Of a DNA stretch of 39,225 bases, positions 1,698 through 7,055 are shown in pieces. This DNA is from Catenulispora sp. (lineage in GTDB: Bacteria; Actinomycetota; Actinomycetes; Streptomycetales; Catenulisporaceae), in contig JABFXP010000567.1 in assembly GCA_013361685.1 (NCBI GenBank), positions 1-39,225 of the forward strand, given 5' to 3'. How positions within the stretch are numbered: position 1 is the stretch's first letter; each line of letters begins with the position of its first letter. The notes under the pieces were generated by a model, which saw nothing but the letters and a program-made list of their open reading frames with translations, made no database searches and had not been told where the DNA came from. Position numbers and translations under genes: made by a program.

Positions 1698-1782
1698 GGA
1701 GGATTTGCCTAGCGGCCGAAGGCGTTGGTCTTGAAAACCAAAGTGGCGAGAGTCACCGTGGGTTCGAATCCCACATCCTCCG
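1698..1782 (+). tRNA. tRNA-Ser (anticodon UGA)
   Basis: The acceptor arms GGAGGAT (1698-1704) and ATCCTCC (1775-1781) pair fully. The anticodon stem TTGGT/ACCAA holds the loop CTTGAAA, giving anticodon TGA at 1732-1734. The T-arm GTGGG-TTCGAAT-CCCAC is perfect, and a long variable arm (GTGGCGAGAGTCAC) identifies a class II tRNA. The CCA end is not encoded: the discriminator G1782 is followed by CCG. Confidence 0.96.
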
Positions 1783-1840
1783 CCGTCGACAGGTTTTCGA
1801 CCTGCACTCTTACCGCGCGTGAGAGCGGCTTTCGCCGCAC

Positions 1841-1907: not shown

Positions 1908-2936
1908 TCACCGCTGTCGTACCACGGGAACCGCGAGGCAACCGCGTTCGCGGGCGTCCTTGCGGGCCAGGCCCGGCGCGGATCCGACGCCCACGACCCG
2001 GTCGCCGTCGATCGCCATCCAGTCCCCGGCGCTCACCCACTCGGGAATCGCGACCGCCAACGCGGCGCTGACCGCCGGTGCCGGACCCGTCGGGCGTGCC
2101 GGTGCGGCAGTCTGCGAGCGCCATTCCACCACCCGCCGTTCCCGTGCCACGGAGCGTCGCCGGACCACGTACTGCGTGACGATCACCGGTCCGAGAACGG
2201 TCAACAGCGGCAGGCTCGAATCGGCGGCGCCGGCCACGAACAACATGCCGACGCCCGCGCACACCGCCACACCCGTCGCGGCGGCCGCGATTCCCGCGCG
2301 ACGGCCGAAGGCCTTGTCCATCGCCAGCGGAAACACCGCCAGCATCACCAGGTCTCCCAAGCCTATGGACACCGGGGTGTGTCCGCCGGCCAGCTCGAAG
2401 ACCGGGGCGAACGGCAGTCCTTGCACGTGGGCGGCGAAGCGATGCGTGACGTCTGTCATGGTCGTGGCGATCAGGTCGTATCCGGTCAGGACCGAGGAGA
2501 ACGCGGCCACCTGTCCGGCCCGCAGCCCGCCCTGCACCCACAGGTTCCCGACACCGACCACCGCGATCGCCAGCACGGCGTCGCTGAAGACCCGGGTCGG
2601 CAGGCTGTGGCCCGAGGCCCACGCCGCGAACGTCCCAGCGCACAGCGCCGTGGCGGCCAGCAACCCCGCGCGGCCGCCCATGACGGGCGCGAGGGTCGCC
2701 TGCACCGCGACGAGGCCGACCAGGCCGAACACCGCCGCCACGAACGTCCCTGGCAGATGCAGGTACAGCAGTGGCGCCGCGACGACCATGACCGTCATGA
2801 ACACCAAATCGGAGCTCCGGAACACGCCGATCGGCGGCCGGGGGACGGTCCAGCGACGGCCATAGGCGAAGGCCGCGGCGATGAGCAGGCTGATGCAGCC
2901 TGTCATGACCGCCCACCAGCCCCATCCCAACGTCAT
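1908..2936 (-). CDS. Predicted presenilin/SPP-like GxGD intramembrane aspartyl protease
   Basis: A 342-residue polytopic protein. I count nine hydrophobic segments, at about 8-26, 42-60, 63-83, 88-107, 117-135, 140-162, 188-206, 214-236 and 241-258, followed by a soluble tail of about 84 residues. Segment 6 carries GYD (Asp154), segment 7 carries GLGD (192-195, Asp195), and segment 9 begins with SLPLL (241-245) in the position of the PAL motif. Presenilin and signal peptide peptidase (peptidase family A22) have nine helices, YD in helix 6, GxGD in helix 7 and PAL in helix 9, so number, order and spacing all fit. These enzymes cut transmembrane helices inside the membrane. The start overlaps the stop of the upstream ligase gene (ATGA), implying translational coupling. 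The obvious candidate substrate is the 22-residue hydrophobic peptide encoded first in the operon. The alternative is an unrelated transporter with chance GxGD. The family call rests on motifs only. Confidence 0.7.
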   Translation of the reverse strand: MTLGWGWWAVMTGCISLLIAAAFAYGRRWTVPRPPIGVFRSSDLVFMTVMVVAAPLLYLHLPGTFVAAVFGLVGLVAVQATLAPVMGGRAGLLAATALCAGTFAAWASGHSLPTRVFSDAVLAIAVVGVGNLWVQGGLRAGQVAAFSSVLTGYDLIATTMTDVTHRFAAHVQGLPFAPVFELAGGHTPVSIGLGDLVMLAVFPLAMDKAFGRRAGIAAAATGVAVCAGVGMLFVAGAADSSLPLLTVLGPVIVTQYVVRRRSVARERRVVEWRSQTAAPARPTGPAPAVSAALAVAIPEWVSAGDWMAIDGDRVVGVGSAPGLARKDARERGCLAVPVVRQR

Positions 2937-4399
2937 ACCCCGACTCCGATCGGCTCGGTGTGCCGCCCGCCGCGCTCGAAGCTCCGCTCCCGCAGATCGG
3001 CGCGCACCGGCACGACGGACGGCAGATCCTCGGCGTCGTCGTGCAGGACGATGCCTGCCAACCGCGGCGCCAGCCGGGCGGCGCGCTCCTCCAGCCGCGA
3101 CAGGGCGGCCGCGTTGTTGTGCCGCACCACAACATGCAGCAACGGCCCGGCAGCCGTGTCGACGAGGCAGTACCGGGCTGGAAGCGGCACCCCGCGGTCG
3201 CCTTCGAGGACTTCCAAGACCGATCTCGCGGGCGCGGCCAAGCTCACCGGACCGTCGTATCGGCCCAGGATGTCGGACGAGGCGGTGATCCCGGCCATTT
3301 CACACGTCGGCGCCTCGACGGGCAGCCGCACCAGATCCGCGGTCACGTAGCGCAGCAGGACGGTGCATTCCCGGAAGAAGGAGAAGGGCGTGGCGACGAC
3401 CGTGGCCAGTCCGCCCGGCTCGGCCGGCTGCAACGTCACCGGATCCAGCAGCTCCACATGTCCGAACTCCGACGGGAAGTGCAGATGCCCCTGGCTGCAA
3501 CGGCCGGCTCCGACCGGGGCGATCTCGGTCGCCATGTAGTTGCTGGAGATCCGCTCGACGCCGAACACCTCCCGGATCCGCTCGGTGAGGGCCTCGGTGA
3601 GGATCTCTCCACCGCTCTGCACGGACAGCAACCCGAAGTCAGCAGCCTGCCAACCGCCTTGCTCGGCGGCCTCGACCAGGGCGGCCAGGTAACTCGCGGC
3701 GCCGTTGAGGTGCGTGGGCTGGGCCGCCTTGCGCGGCAGGTCCAGCGGGGCCGCCAGCCGCTCCAGGGCCAAGGCCGGCTCGATCGTCCCGATCTGCAGG
3801 AATCCCGCCCCGATCCGGCGGACGGCCTCGTTGACGCTCAGCAGCGCCATGGTTCCGCGCGACGACGACGTGTGCGCCATGACGTGCTCGGGCCGCAGCT
3901 TCTCGGTGATGCACAGCGCCAGGGTGTTGATGGCCACGAGGGCGTCGACCTCACCGGCGGAGAACCACACCCGGGTGGGTGTGCCCGTGGTCCCGGTCGT
4001 GGTGGCGAGCACGACCGGAGCTGAGCGCGAGGACACGAACATCGAGGGCATGCCCCGCAGTGCCGCCTTCGGCGTCACGGGAACACGCGCCCACGTCTGG
4101 GGATCCAGGCTCGACGCGTCGATCCCGGATGCGGCGAGCACCTGCTGGTAGTAGGCGGTGTGCGCGGTGGCGTACGCAGCGGTGCGGCGCAGGTTCCTGA
4201 CGAGCATCGCCGCCGCGGCCTCGGGGTCTGCCGCGGCTCCCTGCCCGGGCAGCAGAGCCGAGTCCTCGCCGGGGGCGCCGAACTCGGCGACGGTGGCGAC
4301 GACGTCGTCGGCGATCCGGCTGAGCATCGCCGGGTTCATCCGCCCTCTGAGGATCCCAGCGGCGTATCGGAGTTGCGTGACCGCGCTGTCGAACACCAT
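2933..4399 (-). CDS. PaaK/LuxE-like AMP-forming adenylating enzyme
   Basis: A 488-residue member of the phenylacetate-CoA ligase/acyl-protein synthetase branch of the ANL superfamily. Such enzymes activate a carboxylate as an acyl-adenylate and pass it to CoA or to a cysteine. Motifs in order: the phosphate-binding loop TTTGTTGTPTRVWFS (133-147), YMATE (288-292, A5-like), YVTAD (351-355, with the ribose-binding Asp) and GRYD (379-382, hinge). The last lysine is K224. The C-terminal half has none, so the usual A10 lysine is absent; GGRHTE near 478-482 may occupy its place. It sits between the short peptide gene and the GxGD protease and overlaps the latter by 4 bases. A Shine-Dalgarno (AGTGAAGGG) lies about 5 bases before the ATG. 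The substrate is unknown; modification of the peptide is my inference. Confidence 0.8.
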   Translation of the reverse strand: MVFDSAVTQLRYAAGILRGRMNPAMLSRIADDVVATVAEFGAPGEDSALLPGQGAAADPEAAAAMLVRNLRRTAAYATAHTAYYQQVLAASGIDASSLDPQTWARVPVTPKAALRGMPSMFVSSRSAPVVLATTTGTTGTPTRVWFSAGEVDALVAINTLALCITEKLRPEHVMAHTSSSRGTMALLSVNEAVRRIGAGFLQIGTIEPALALERLAAPLDLPRKAAQPTHLNGAASYLAALVEAAEQGGWQAADFGLLSVQSGGEILTEALTERIREVFGVERISSNYMATEIAPVGAGRCSQGHLHFPSEFGHVELLDPVTLQPAEPGGLATVVATPFSFFRECTVLLRYVTADLVRLPVEAPTCEMAGITASSDILGRYDGPVSLAAPARSVLEVLEGDRGVPLPARYCLVDTAAGPLLHVVVRHNNAAALSRLEERAARLAPRLAGIVLHDDAEDLPSVVPVRADLRERSFERGGRHTEPIGVGV

Positions 4400-4406
4400 G
4401 CCTGCC

Positions 4407-4520
4407 CTTCACTTCCGCGGGACGCCCCGGGCCGGTTTCGGGGCCCGGCCCGGGGCACCAGGCGTGCTCTTCACTTCCAGGGGATGCCCCGGGCCGGTTA
4501 CGGGGGGCCCGGCCCGGGGC
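4407..4520 (-). repeat. Tandem duplicated hairpin element between peptide and ligase genes
   Basis: Two copies (4407-4456 and 4469-4520, offset 62) share CTTCACTTCC followed by a 12-bp GC stem, GCCCCGGGCCGG with CCGGCCCGGGGC. Stem arms are 4424-4435/4445-4456 and 4486-4497/4509-4520, with loops of 9 and 11 bases. On the coding (minus) strand each hairpin precedes GGAAGTGAAG; the ligase-proximal copy supplies the ligase ribosome-binding site. The stems may attenuate read-through, stabilise the peptide mRNA, or both. Confidence 0.75.
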
Positions 4521-4530
4521 CGTTCATGGG

Positions 4531-4599
4531 TCAGTAATTCTGCGCGAACATCGCGGCGCCGATCGTCGAGACCGCCAACTTCACATACTGCTTGAGCAT
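4531..4599 (-). CDS. 22-residue hydrophobic peptide, candidate signal precursor
   Basis: A very short gene that starts MLKQYVK, continues with a hydrophobic core LAVSTIGAAMFA, and ends in QNY. It is supported by the best ribosome-binding site in the window, 5 bases before the ATG, and by its place as first gene of an operon with a ligase and a predicted intramembrane protease. The basic N-terminus plus apolar core resembles streptococcal SHP pheromone precursors (about 20-23 residues) in layout only. It has no Cys, so it is not a lanthipeptide. The regulator with TPR repeats is divergent, 140 bases away. The alternative is an attenuation leader peptide acting on the hairpins that begin 10 bases after its stop, but it lacks a run of one amino acid. 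No known peptide family is recognised. Confidence 0.65.
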   Translation of the reverse strand: MLKQYVKLAVSTIGAAMFAQNY

Positions 4600-4604
4600 C
4601 AAAA

Positions 4605-4612
4605 TCACCTCC
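4605..4612 (-). promoter_or_regulatory. Near-perfect Shine-Dalgarno of the 22-residue peptide gene
   Basis: On the minus strand the sequence reads GGGAGGTGATTTTG before ATG. GGAGGTGA matches the 16S rRNA 3' end over eight bases with a 5-base gap. No other gene in the window has such a site. It is the main evidence that this short frame is translated, and efficiently. Confidence 0.85.
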
Positions 4613-4631
4613 CGCCTGCGAACCGTGACGA

Positions 4632-4695
4632 CCACTGTGTCCGCCCGGCGAGCCGGTGGCACGATTCCCACGCAAGTCCACACACCCTCTAGGAT
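4632..4695. promoter_or_regulatory. Divergent promoter/operator region between peptide operon and regulator
   Basis: The 140-base gap 4600-4739 must hold both promoters. TAGGAT at 4690-4695 is a possible -10 for the regulator; no convincing -35 is seen. A nested dyad, CCAC (4632-4635) with GTGG (4656-4659) around CCGGC-GA-GCCGG (4645-4656), lies upstream of the peptide gene and is a candidate regulator site. All of this is weak. Confidence 0.3.
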
Positions 4696-4739
4696 CAGAA
4701 CCCTTGCAGCGGCGATCACCTCGGGGGTGCGCATCCGTC

Positions 4740-7055
4740 ATGTCTGCCGCGAGTGGCGCCAGTGGGCCGGACCCCGGCCGGGCGGCGGATCTCACCGAGT
4801 TCATCGACCTGCTCGGCGAGCTGCGCACCTGGGCCGGCCAGCCCTCCTACCGGATCCTGGCCAGACGGGTCGGACCGCTGCTGAGACCGCCGCAGCCGGT
4901 GTCCGCCTCGACGGTCATCGACGCCTTCAAGCCGAACCGCCGCCGCCTGAACCTCGACCTGGTGGTCGCGATCGTGCGCGCGCTCGGTCTGGACGAGGCC
5001 GCCGTGAACCGCTGGCGGCAGTCCTGCCTCCGGGTCCACGCGGCGGTGAAGACCGGCGGCCCCTCTGGTGTGCTCCACCAGCTGCCCGCCGTCCTGCCGA
5101 CCTTCTCCGGGCGCGAGGCGCAGCTGGCCCGGCTGCGGCAGATCGCCGCCCCGGCGGGATCGCCGAGGCCGCGGACCGTCGTCATCTCGGCCATCGAGGG
5201 TATGGCCGGCGTCGGGAAGACCCAGCTGGCGGTGCGCGTCGCGCACGAGCTTGTCCGGTCTGGACGATTCACCGATGTCCAGCTCTTCGCCAACCTGCAC
5301 GGGTTCGATCCGGAATGGCCACCGGCCGATCCGGCCGAGGTCCTGGGAGCCTTCCTGCGGCAGCTGGGGGTGGCGGCGAACCAGCTTCCCGACACCCTGC
5401 CGGAGCGGGCGGCGATGTTCCGGGACCGACTGGACGGCATGGCCGCGTTGATCATCCTGGACAACGCCGCCGACACCCGTCAGATACGGGACCTGATCCC
5501 GGCCTCGCCGTCCTGCCTGACTCTGGTCACCAGCAGACGCAGCCTGGCTGATCTGGACGGGGCGGCGCTTCACCAGCTCGACGTCTTCGAACTGTCGGAG
5601 GCGTTGTCGCTGCTGTCCCGAATCGTCGGCGAGGAGCGGGTGGGCGCCGAGCCGGCCGCCGCCGAGCGGATCGTCCATGCCTGTGGACTGCTTCCCTTGG
5701 CCGTGTCGGTGGCGGGAGCGAAACTTCGTTCCCGTCCAGCTTGGAGCTTGGCGGATCTCGCCCGCACCTTGGAACGCGGTGCGGTGGCGACCAGGGGCCG
5801 GGAGCTCCGGGGCGTGTTCGATGTCTCCTATCGCGCGTTGCCCGAGGCGGCACGCGACGTCTACAGACTGCTGGGTCTGCATCCGGGCGCGGACTTCAGC
5901 GCCGACGCGGTCGCGGCGCTGACCGGCCTGCCCGGCAGCCAGACCAAGGCGATCCTGGAGCTTCTGCTCGACGAACACCTGCTGACCCAGCGCGTCGCGG
6001 ACCGTTATGAGATGCACGACCTACTTCGCGCTTATGCCCGCGAGCTTGCCGCAAACCTGTCGCCCGCTGTGTCCCAGGCAGCCATCCACCGGCTGACCGC
6101 CTGGCAACTGCACAGCGCGGTGAACGCGGGCCAGGCGATGGGGAACAAGGACCGCCCGGTCATCCCGCCCGATCCGCCCAAGACGGGAATCCGTCCGCAG
6201 ACCTTTGCCACCTACGACCAGGCCTCTTCCTGGCTGGACGCAGAACGCGCCAACCTCCGGCTCGGTCAGCAGGCGGCTGCGGCCGAAGGTCTCGACGAGA
6301 TCGTCTACAAGACCGCGTTCGCGCTGCGCAGCTACTACCTACTGCGCCGTCACTTGGAGGACTGGAACGCCTGCTACGACCTCGCTCTGGATGCGGCCCG
6401 CAGAGCCGATGACGCGGAAGCCCAAGCCCGTGCCCTCAACGGCGGTTGCAGCGCCCGCCGCCACAGTGGCCGCCTCGAAGAGGCCGCCGACTACGCACGC
6501 CAAGCACGCGCCATCTACCACCGGCTCGGCGACGGTGTCGGCGAGTCGATAGCCTTGAACAACCTCGGTATCGCCTTGGACGGACTCGGCCGCTTCCGGG
6601 AGTCCGCGGACGTGTACGGGCAGGCCGTCGCTCTCAGCAGGGACGTCGGTGATGCCACGAACGAGGGCATCGCGCTGATGAACGCCGTGGAAGCCCACCT
6701 GCGTCTGGGCAACCGCGAGCGAGGCATCGAGGCCGCCCTGCGGGCTCAGACGATCCTGCGAGCCGCCGGGCACCGGCAGGCCGAGGCCCAGCTGCAGGAG
6801 ACGCTGGGGCAGCTCTACCACACAGACGGTCGCCTCGCCGAGGCCCAGGCCGCCTATCGCCACAGCGCGGCCTTGGCGGCGGAAATCGGAGACGCCCACC
6901 TCGAAGCCTGCGCTCTGCACGCGCTCGGCGACGTCTTCGCCGACGCCGGTTCGCGACGGGAAGCCGAGGCAGCCTGGTCGGAAGCCAGGAAGCTGTATGA
7001 GTCCCTGGACGACCCGAGAGCAGCGGTCGTCGAGACGCTCCTGAACCGGGGATAA
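4740..7055 (+). CDS. HTH-NB-ARC-TPR (STAND) transcriptional regulator
   Basis: A 771-residue STAND protein. Residues about 15-100 form a helical XRE-like region with the basic segment FKPNRRR. The NTPase follows: Walker A GMAGVGKT (154-161), Walker B near LIILDNA, a GLPL-like LLPLAVSVAG, and an MHD motif (425-427) typical of NB-ARC domains. From about 560 to the end, TPR-like repeats appear (AEAQARALN, ESIALNNLGIALDGLGRF, EGIALMNAVEAHLRLG). There is no SARP/BTAD domain, so it is not AfsR. STAND proteins bind a ligand through their repeats and switch state with nucleotide. Here the divergent peptide operon suggests that the mature peptide could be the ligand and the operon the target. ATG at 4740 is preferred; a GTG at 4656 in the same frame would add 28 residues of poor coding character. 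Confidence 0.85.
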   Translation: MSAASGASGPDPGRAADLTEFIDLLGELRTWAGQPSYRILARRVGPLLRPPQPVSASTVIDAFKPNRRRLNLDLVVAIVRALGLDEAAVNRWRQSCLRVHAAVKTGGPSGVLHQLPAVLPTFSGREAQLARLRQIAAPAGSPRPRTVVISAIEGMAGVGKTQLAVRVAHELVRSGRFTDVQLFANLHGFDPEWPPADPAEVLGAFLRQLGVAANQLPDTLPERAAMFRDRLDGMAALIILDNAADTRQIRDLIPASPSCLTLVTSRRSLADLDGAALHQLDVFELSEALSLLSRIVGEERVGAEPAAAERIVHACGLLPLAVSVAGAKLRSRPAWSLADLARTLERGAVATRGRELRGVFDVSYRALPEAARDVYRLLGLHPGADFSADAVAALTGLPGSQTKAILELLLDEHLLTQRVADRYEMHDLLRAYARELAANLSPAVSQAAIHRLTAWQLHSAVNAGQAMGNKDRPVIPPDPPKTGIRPQTFATYDQASSWLDAERANLRLGQQAAAAEGLDEIVYKTAFALRSYYLLRRHLEDWNACYDLALDAARRADDAEAQARALNGGCSARRHSGRLEEAADYARQARAIYHRLGDGVGESIALNNLGIALDGLGRFRESADVYGQAVALSRDVGDATNEGIALMNAVEAHLRLGNRERGIEAALRAQTILRAAGHRQAEAQLQETLGQLYHTDGRLAEAQAAYRHSAALAAEIGDAHLEACALHALGDVFADAGSRREAEAAWSEARKLYESLDDPRAAVVETLLNRG

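Follow-up and report, generated by a model that had tools for sequence, protein, structure and literature searches.

Here we analysed a 39,225-nucleotide stretch of a Catenulispora sp. genome (contig JABFXP010000567.1; the window) that holds a leftward group of three genes. They are transcribed on the minus strand in the order peptide, PaaK-like ligase and membrane protein, the first encoding a tiny hydrophobic peptide and the last a nine-helix protein with a GxGD motif. The ligase and membrane genes overlap by 4 bases (ATGA), and the operon proposed in the original prediction is borne out in its coordinates and in this overlap. We find that the three genes travel together and that the peptide is conserved, and we consider the chances slightly better than even that they form a self-contained cassette for peptide maturation.

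Linkage of the genes and conservation of the peptide

Among 391 genomes of the order, searches with the window's ligase (E<=1e-40) and with its membrane protein (E<=1e-8) returned exactly the same 19 genomes, and a 40-row ligase profile (E<=1e-60) returned these 19 plus one fragment in genome G376. In all 19 the ligase gene adjoins the membrane gene with a 4-base overlap and a family peptide lies directly upstream (17 found in one scan, plus the window and G286). Scanning one genome per species, with a membrane-protein profile passed through one sequence pattern, gave 39 named loci, a set that is not exhaustive because a single pattern was used; they come from Streptomyces, Actinacidiphila, Kitasatospora, Actinomadura, Actinoallomurus, Solihabitans, three Chloroflexota bins and one Thermomicrobiales bin, so that the cassette spans Actinomycetota, Chloroflexota and Thermomicrobiota. 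The ligase gene stands immediately upstream of the membrane gene in every one of the 39, with the exact 4-base overlap in 33, a count that leans upward because the membrane gene start was taken as the in-frame start nearest to such an overlap. Counts of the two sets are not summed, since several records occur in both. Ligase and membrane-protein distances are closely correlated (r 0.971 over 40 rows). The cassette is nonetheless rare: in a phylum-wide sample the membrane gene was present in 1 of 396 genomes, the window's own. Further copies that include the peptide are present on two Streptomyces plasmids and a 3.1 Mb Embleya replicon. One annotated plasmid record names the large genes 'phenylacetate--CoA ligase family protein' and 'hypothetical protein', and the peptide gene is not among the genes in that plasmid's PLSDB table, which is known to be incomplete.

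The peptide belongs to a family of 22-29 residues with a shared plan, namely a basic N end, [KR]Y (KL in the window), a short hydrophobic stretch, an invariant Phe and a variable tail of 3-6 residues. An alignment of 26 peptides shows a single Phe without variation and the Tyr, Leu in the window, kept in at least 90%. Codon comparisons gave ratios of non-synonymous to synonymous differences (pN/pS) of 0.43 (11 loci plus the window), 0.41 (15 loci) and 0.21 (6 loci), indicating purifying selection at the amino-acid level. No more than 500 nt from the cassette, 37 of the 39 named loci have an open reading frame (ORF) that shows the motif and is accompanied by a ribosome-binding-like sequence; this figure is partly by construction because the search expression was built from peptides already known, and the informative control is the motif's near-absence elsewhere, with 1 match in 457,880 bases on both strands, itself the second peptide copy of L063. 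Thus the two expectations on which the original prediction staked itself, that the small ORF would be conserved in relatives and that the three genes would be usual neighbours, both held, and the computations give strong backing to linkage of the genes and conservation of the peptide.

At the two loci with no peptide match (L066 and L070) the sequence ahead of the ligase gene amounts to 569 and 125 bases. The position of the peptide gene varies, being after the membrane gene in L071 and downstream on the opposite strand in L063. Two of the four loci from Chloroflexota and Thermomicrobiota, one in a Chloroflexota bin and one in a Thermomicrobiales bin, carry two family peptides with differing tails (L063, 4631 (-) and 5150 (-); L067, 3998 (+) and 4115 (+)). 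Residues after the invariant Phe are more variable than those before it in three groups (mean distinct residues 2.75 v 1.41, 3.00 v 1.73 and 2.00 v 1.09, the tail of one clade B28 peptide having been split one Phe too late), while two sets keep a constant final residue, Ser in 13 clade B peptides and Asn/Gln in five from Chloroflexota/Thermomicrobiota. Net charge ahead of the tail is positive in all 29 peptides (+2 to +5); that of the tail is 0 in 26 and +1 in three.

Between the peptide and ligase genes there is usually a strong hairpin. The uninterrupted stem is longer than in dinucleotide shuffles in 30 of 38 regions running from peptide stop to ligase start (p<=0.05, 100 shuffles each), with a median fold z of -3.1 and stem sequences that differ between clades. 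Attenuating hairpins are found behind other precursor-peptide genes, which the cassette hairpin resembles, and it would raise the ratio of peptide to enzyme. No T-run terminator was found in the window's peptide-ligase region, where the hairpin and a GGAAGTGAAG stretch ahead of the ligase start are nearly duplicated.

Table 1. Features of the cassette and its divergent neighbour in the window
Feature	Positions	Strand	Basis
Peptide gene, 22 codons + stop, MLKQYVKLAVSTIGAAMFAQNY	4531-4599	(-)	ORF and conserved family
Shine-Dalgarno-like GGGAGGTGA ahead of peptide start	4605-4613	(-)	Sequence
GC-rich hairpin region separating the peptide and ligase genes	4400-4530	(-)	15-pair stem
PaaK/ANL-superfamily adenylate-forming enzyme, 488 aa	2933-4399	(-)	PF00501, motifs and fold
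Nine-helix GxGD protein, 342 aa	1908-2936	(-)	Predicted presenilin/signal-peptide-peptidase fold
NB-ARC-TPR (STAND) gene, divergent	4656-7055	(+)	Adjacent in the window; not conserved with the cassette

The distance of 140 bases originally given between the peptide start and the NB-ARC-TPR gene stands if the latter starts at ATG 4740, and becomes 56 bases with GTG 4656. Immediately past the 3' end of the cassette lies a tRNA-Ser (TGA) gene (1698-1784 (+)), preceded by an ordinary thymidine kinase gene (PF00265, 988-1635 (+)). Clustering of the neighbours of 42 loci (the named loci with the window, G009 and G278) placed an ABC-ATPase-like gene (assigned by eye) near 12, an IclR regulator near nine of one clade and the SARP/STAND family near eight. 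Remnants were also seen. In G376 (L105 3266-3824 (-)) the middle of the ligase runs straight into the tail end of the membrane gene and the 7.5 kb inspected lack a peptide motif, the two genes having decayed together; G004 (L051 1372-1500 (-)) keeps a short membrane-gene relic, with GLGG for GLGD, beside a STAND-family gene and convergent as in G009. In the Nonomuraea record L098 the match to the ligase starts no earlier than residue 266, and the pattern used gave no peptide. A phage or viral origin was considered and rejected, with no relative in viral contigs, in phage records (one Chloroflexota query) or in PHROGs (window proteins only), and so was a defence system, the PADLOC match being restricted to the TPR region of the regulator.

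The predicted presenilin-type protein and the ligase

The membrane protein is confidently predicted to have a presenilin/signal peptide peptidase (SPP)-type fold, in support of the presenilin-like assignment first made for it. Its predicted model has nine long helices (mean pLDDT, the predicted local distance difference test, 91), and structural comparison likewise recovers the nine-helix presenilin fold. YD (153-154) and GLGD (192-195) sit on adjacent transmembrane helices (140-159 and 193-210), as in that family, and Y153, D154, G192, G194 and D195 are invariant in 40 of 40 rows. Pro243 is equally invariant, within PAQ in clade B and a PLL-like triplet in clade A. Its charges indicate an N-out/C-in orientation. 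Identity to the archaeal presenilin homologue MCMJR1, which we take to be the PSH of the PDB, is 16% in structural alignment. The best structural match, 9k93, has the inhibitor L-685,458 bound. As to known sequence families, Pfam gave sub-threshold matches only and NCBIfam none; families absent from Foldseek's list are not excluded, because VIA-align re-examines that same list. Clade A proteins extend beyond the presenilin fold at the C terminus by an additional strand-helix part (residues ~287-342, window 1911-2078 (-)); two of 19 members show a sub-threshold match to DUF5678.

The ligase matches AMP-binding PF00501 (E 4.9e-8) and carries the elements expected of the ANL/PaaK fold, that is a Thr/Gly-rich ATP loop (TTGT[TS]G), the TE motif and the Asp (D355), all kept, together with invariant C301, H305, H307 and C366. 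The window's enzyme is 34-55% identical to its 39 cassette relatives.

Proposed peptide maturation and the alternatives

The most economical reading is that the peptide is processed by its two neighbours. A peptide of 22-29 residues would be produced, probably in larger amounts than the enzymes since the hairpin usually separates their genes, and would insert with its basic N end inside, its hydrophobic stretch in the membrane and its short tail outside, as a tiny type II signal anchor. The SPP-type aspartyl protease, whose N-out/C-in topology matches, would then cut it in the membrane near the invariant Phe, freeing the variable tail of 3-6 residues and/or an N-terminal fragment with a new carboxylate. 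The PaaK-like enzyme would use ATP to activate a carboxylate, either the original or the new C end of the peptide or that of a small acid to be joined to it. More speculatively, the product would work extracellularly, as a signal in the likeliest case or else as another small bioactive peptide; signalling itself is one guess out of two or three. The peptide family, the co-occurrence of the genes, the hairpin, the predicted fold, the invariant aspartates and the charge topology were all computed and lend their support to the scheme.

A number of observations weigh against this reading. Neither cleavage nor ligation nor any product has been seen. The hydrophobic stretch of the peptide is short and moderately hydrophobic (best 14-residue mean 0.76-2.29), so that its insertion into the membrane is not certain. 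Recognition of the membrane protein by sequence is poor: Pfam SPP model PF06550 has no match in the window's own genome, a profile match to presenilin-1 pairs GLGD with GLGD but is weak (E 0.7), and Foldseek E-values run from 1.2e-3 to 0.13, none being <0.001. The ligase has no Lys inside its C-terminal R-x-[DL]-L-x-E stretch in 40 of 40 rows (position by eye), although ANL enzymes usually carry a catalytic lysine (A10 Lys) there; one occurs shortly after the stretch in L066, L081 and L088 and before it in L067 (printed segment), and we class the protein as a divergent PaaK-like one of putative activity because the A10 Lys was not located at this position, judged by eye. The shuffle test found no significant stem in eight of the 38 peptide-ligase regions, and its control consisted of shuffles only, other intergenic regions of these GC-rich genomes not being the baseline. 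Genes for an exporter or a receptor are not regularly found nearby. Finally, a literal PAL triplet is absent near the C end of the membrane protein, and an obvious one is lacking too in the active archaeal MCMJR1 (PMC2947513).

Alternative explanations share much of this evidence. Small membrane proteins are known to attach to larger complexes, and the peptide might be an uncut subunit or regulator of the protease or ligase; a short conserved hydrophobic peptide found with the same two enzymes would fit this, and the invariant Phe with [KR]Y would suit a binding face. Yet the tail beside that Phe is the most variable part, two loci encode two peptides each, and unequal amounts of peptide and enzymes are suggested because the hairpin usually lies between their genes, and we regard an uncut subunit as unlikely. 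To a similar degree we doubt that the same enzymes, by the same steps up to ligase activation, make a natural product resembling a ribosomally synthesised and post-translationally modified peptide (RiPP), perhaps an antimicrobial one acting on competitors. Sporadic accessory occurrence (19 of 391 genomes, the plasmids and the Embleya replicon) and a precursor gene with a hairpin downstream are what such a product would lead one to expect, whereas no immunity gene was recognised, no transporter family lies near more than 12 of the 42 loci, and the clade-conserved core and C-terminal residue suggest narrow constraint. Strongly disfavoured, and to our minds highly improbable, is the idea that the small ORF encodes a leader peptide for transcription attenuation, which would control the ligase gene by way of the hairpin. 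An attenuator would indeed have this layout, a small ORF and then a stem-loop in front of an enzyme gene; however, the peptide itself is conserved under purifying selection, where an attenuator would be conserved in control codons and RNA, the sequences shown hold no run of a single control codon, the window's region lacks a T-run terminator, and the motif is kept where the peptide gene is downstream, inverted or duplicated.

It is also quite improbable that the peptide is a pheromone sensed by the window's divergent TPR regulator, as the original prediction had it. A STAND, SARP or LuxR/AAA_16 gene does stand next upstream and divergent in the window, its congener G009, L064, L074, L077 and L087, and is the nearest upstream gene in L061. 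Against this, a search with the window's STAND gene at E<=1e-60 gives 18 matches in its own genome, counting the query, and as many as 30 in congeners, and the regulator types differ among loci. We examined the gene next upstream of the peptide in 34 of the 35 named loci with an upstream peptide, scanning five with Pfam (L061, L064, L074, L076 and L077): it is IclR-type in nine related Streptomyces (one scanned), SARP (BTAD) in three Actinomadura (L074 and L077 scanned, L087 by BLAST), LuxR-type AAA_16 in Solihabitans L064, in L061 an NB-ARC gene at a distance of 1.1 kb, and in the remaining 20 another gene, outside the Pfam scan, none of which matched the window STAND or the G009 SARP. In all, 29 of the 34 matched neither, leaving five with a STAND, SARP or LuxR-AAA_16 gene, besides the window and G009. 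This association is recurrent but minor, and the cassette does not need the window regulator, which we reject as a conserved part of the system; the N-terminal helix-turn-helix ascribed to it had no Pfam match. The earlier signalling scheme is partly supported: it keeps its conserved peptide, its linked genes and its predicted presenilin fold, and loses its STAND regulator.

Returning to peptide maturation, the folds are known and the system is not. In full-text literature no description of the cassette, of a bacterial presenilin operon or of the peptide sequence appeared among the matches listed, most subscription papers and all preprints lying outside that corpus. We tentatively propose, at somewhat less than even chances, a new and hitherto undescribed kind of peptide system in bacteria: an intramembrane aspartyl protease of the presenilin/SPP family would have a dedicated, co-encoded substrate of 22-29 residues, an ATP-dependent PaaK-like ligase would activate or cap the peptide, and a small secreted signal with a clade-specific tail would result. 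As far as searched, no natural role has yet been described for a bacterial presenilin/SPP-type protein with a gene-linked candidate substrate, and here a protein of that predicted fold is tied, across three phyla, to one tiny candidate substrate and one ligase. With the cassette, which some soil bacteria carry, the study of intramembrane proteolysis gains a minimal and genetically tractable candidate pair of enzyme and substrate, and Streptomyces may prove to make a new type of small-peptide signal or product. Such products may be overlooked, since the incomplete PLSDB gene table of the plasmid shows no peptide gene.

Comparison with known systems

Like SPP, SPP-like (SPPL) proteins and presenilin, the cassette protein has nine helices, YD and GxGD on adjacent helices and the same predicted fold, and by charge it shares the N-out/C-in orientation of SPP. 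SPP cuts type II membrane signal peptides (PMC1654158). The cassette protein differs from these enzymes in escaping the Pfam SPP model in this genome, in its degenerate PAL, and in being bacterial and co-encoded with a candidate substrate and a ligase; for MCMJR1, the portion of the source available mentions no dedicated substrate gene (PMC2947513). The ligase is 17-19% identical in structural alignment to the PaaK-type CoA ligases and PaaK-family AMP-ligases PaaK1 (2y27), NatL2 (6tm4) and ClxA (9s45), and is set apart from PaaK-type ligases by its fixed partner genes and by the C-terminal stretch without Lys.

Streptococcal SHP/Rgg systems, in which the membrane metalloprotease Eep cuts SHP precursors, resemble the cassette in a hydrophobic precursor of 20-odd residues, here one of 20-30 residues kept at the amino-acid level, and in the idea of a membrane protease. 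The cassette departs from them in its putative ATP-dependent ligase and in that no conserved cytoplasmic peptide-binding regulator was found beside the peptide gene. In Agr-type AgrB/AgrD systems and in microcin C, with MccB, a short precursor is cut and/or C-terminally activated by co-encoded enzymes; the cassette shares this arrangement of short precursor and co-encoded enzymes, with enzymes of unrelated fold.

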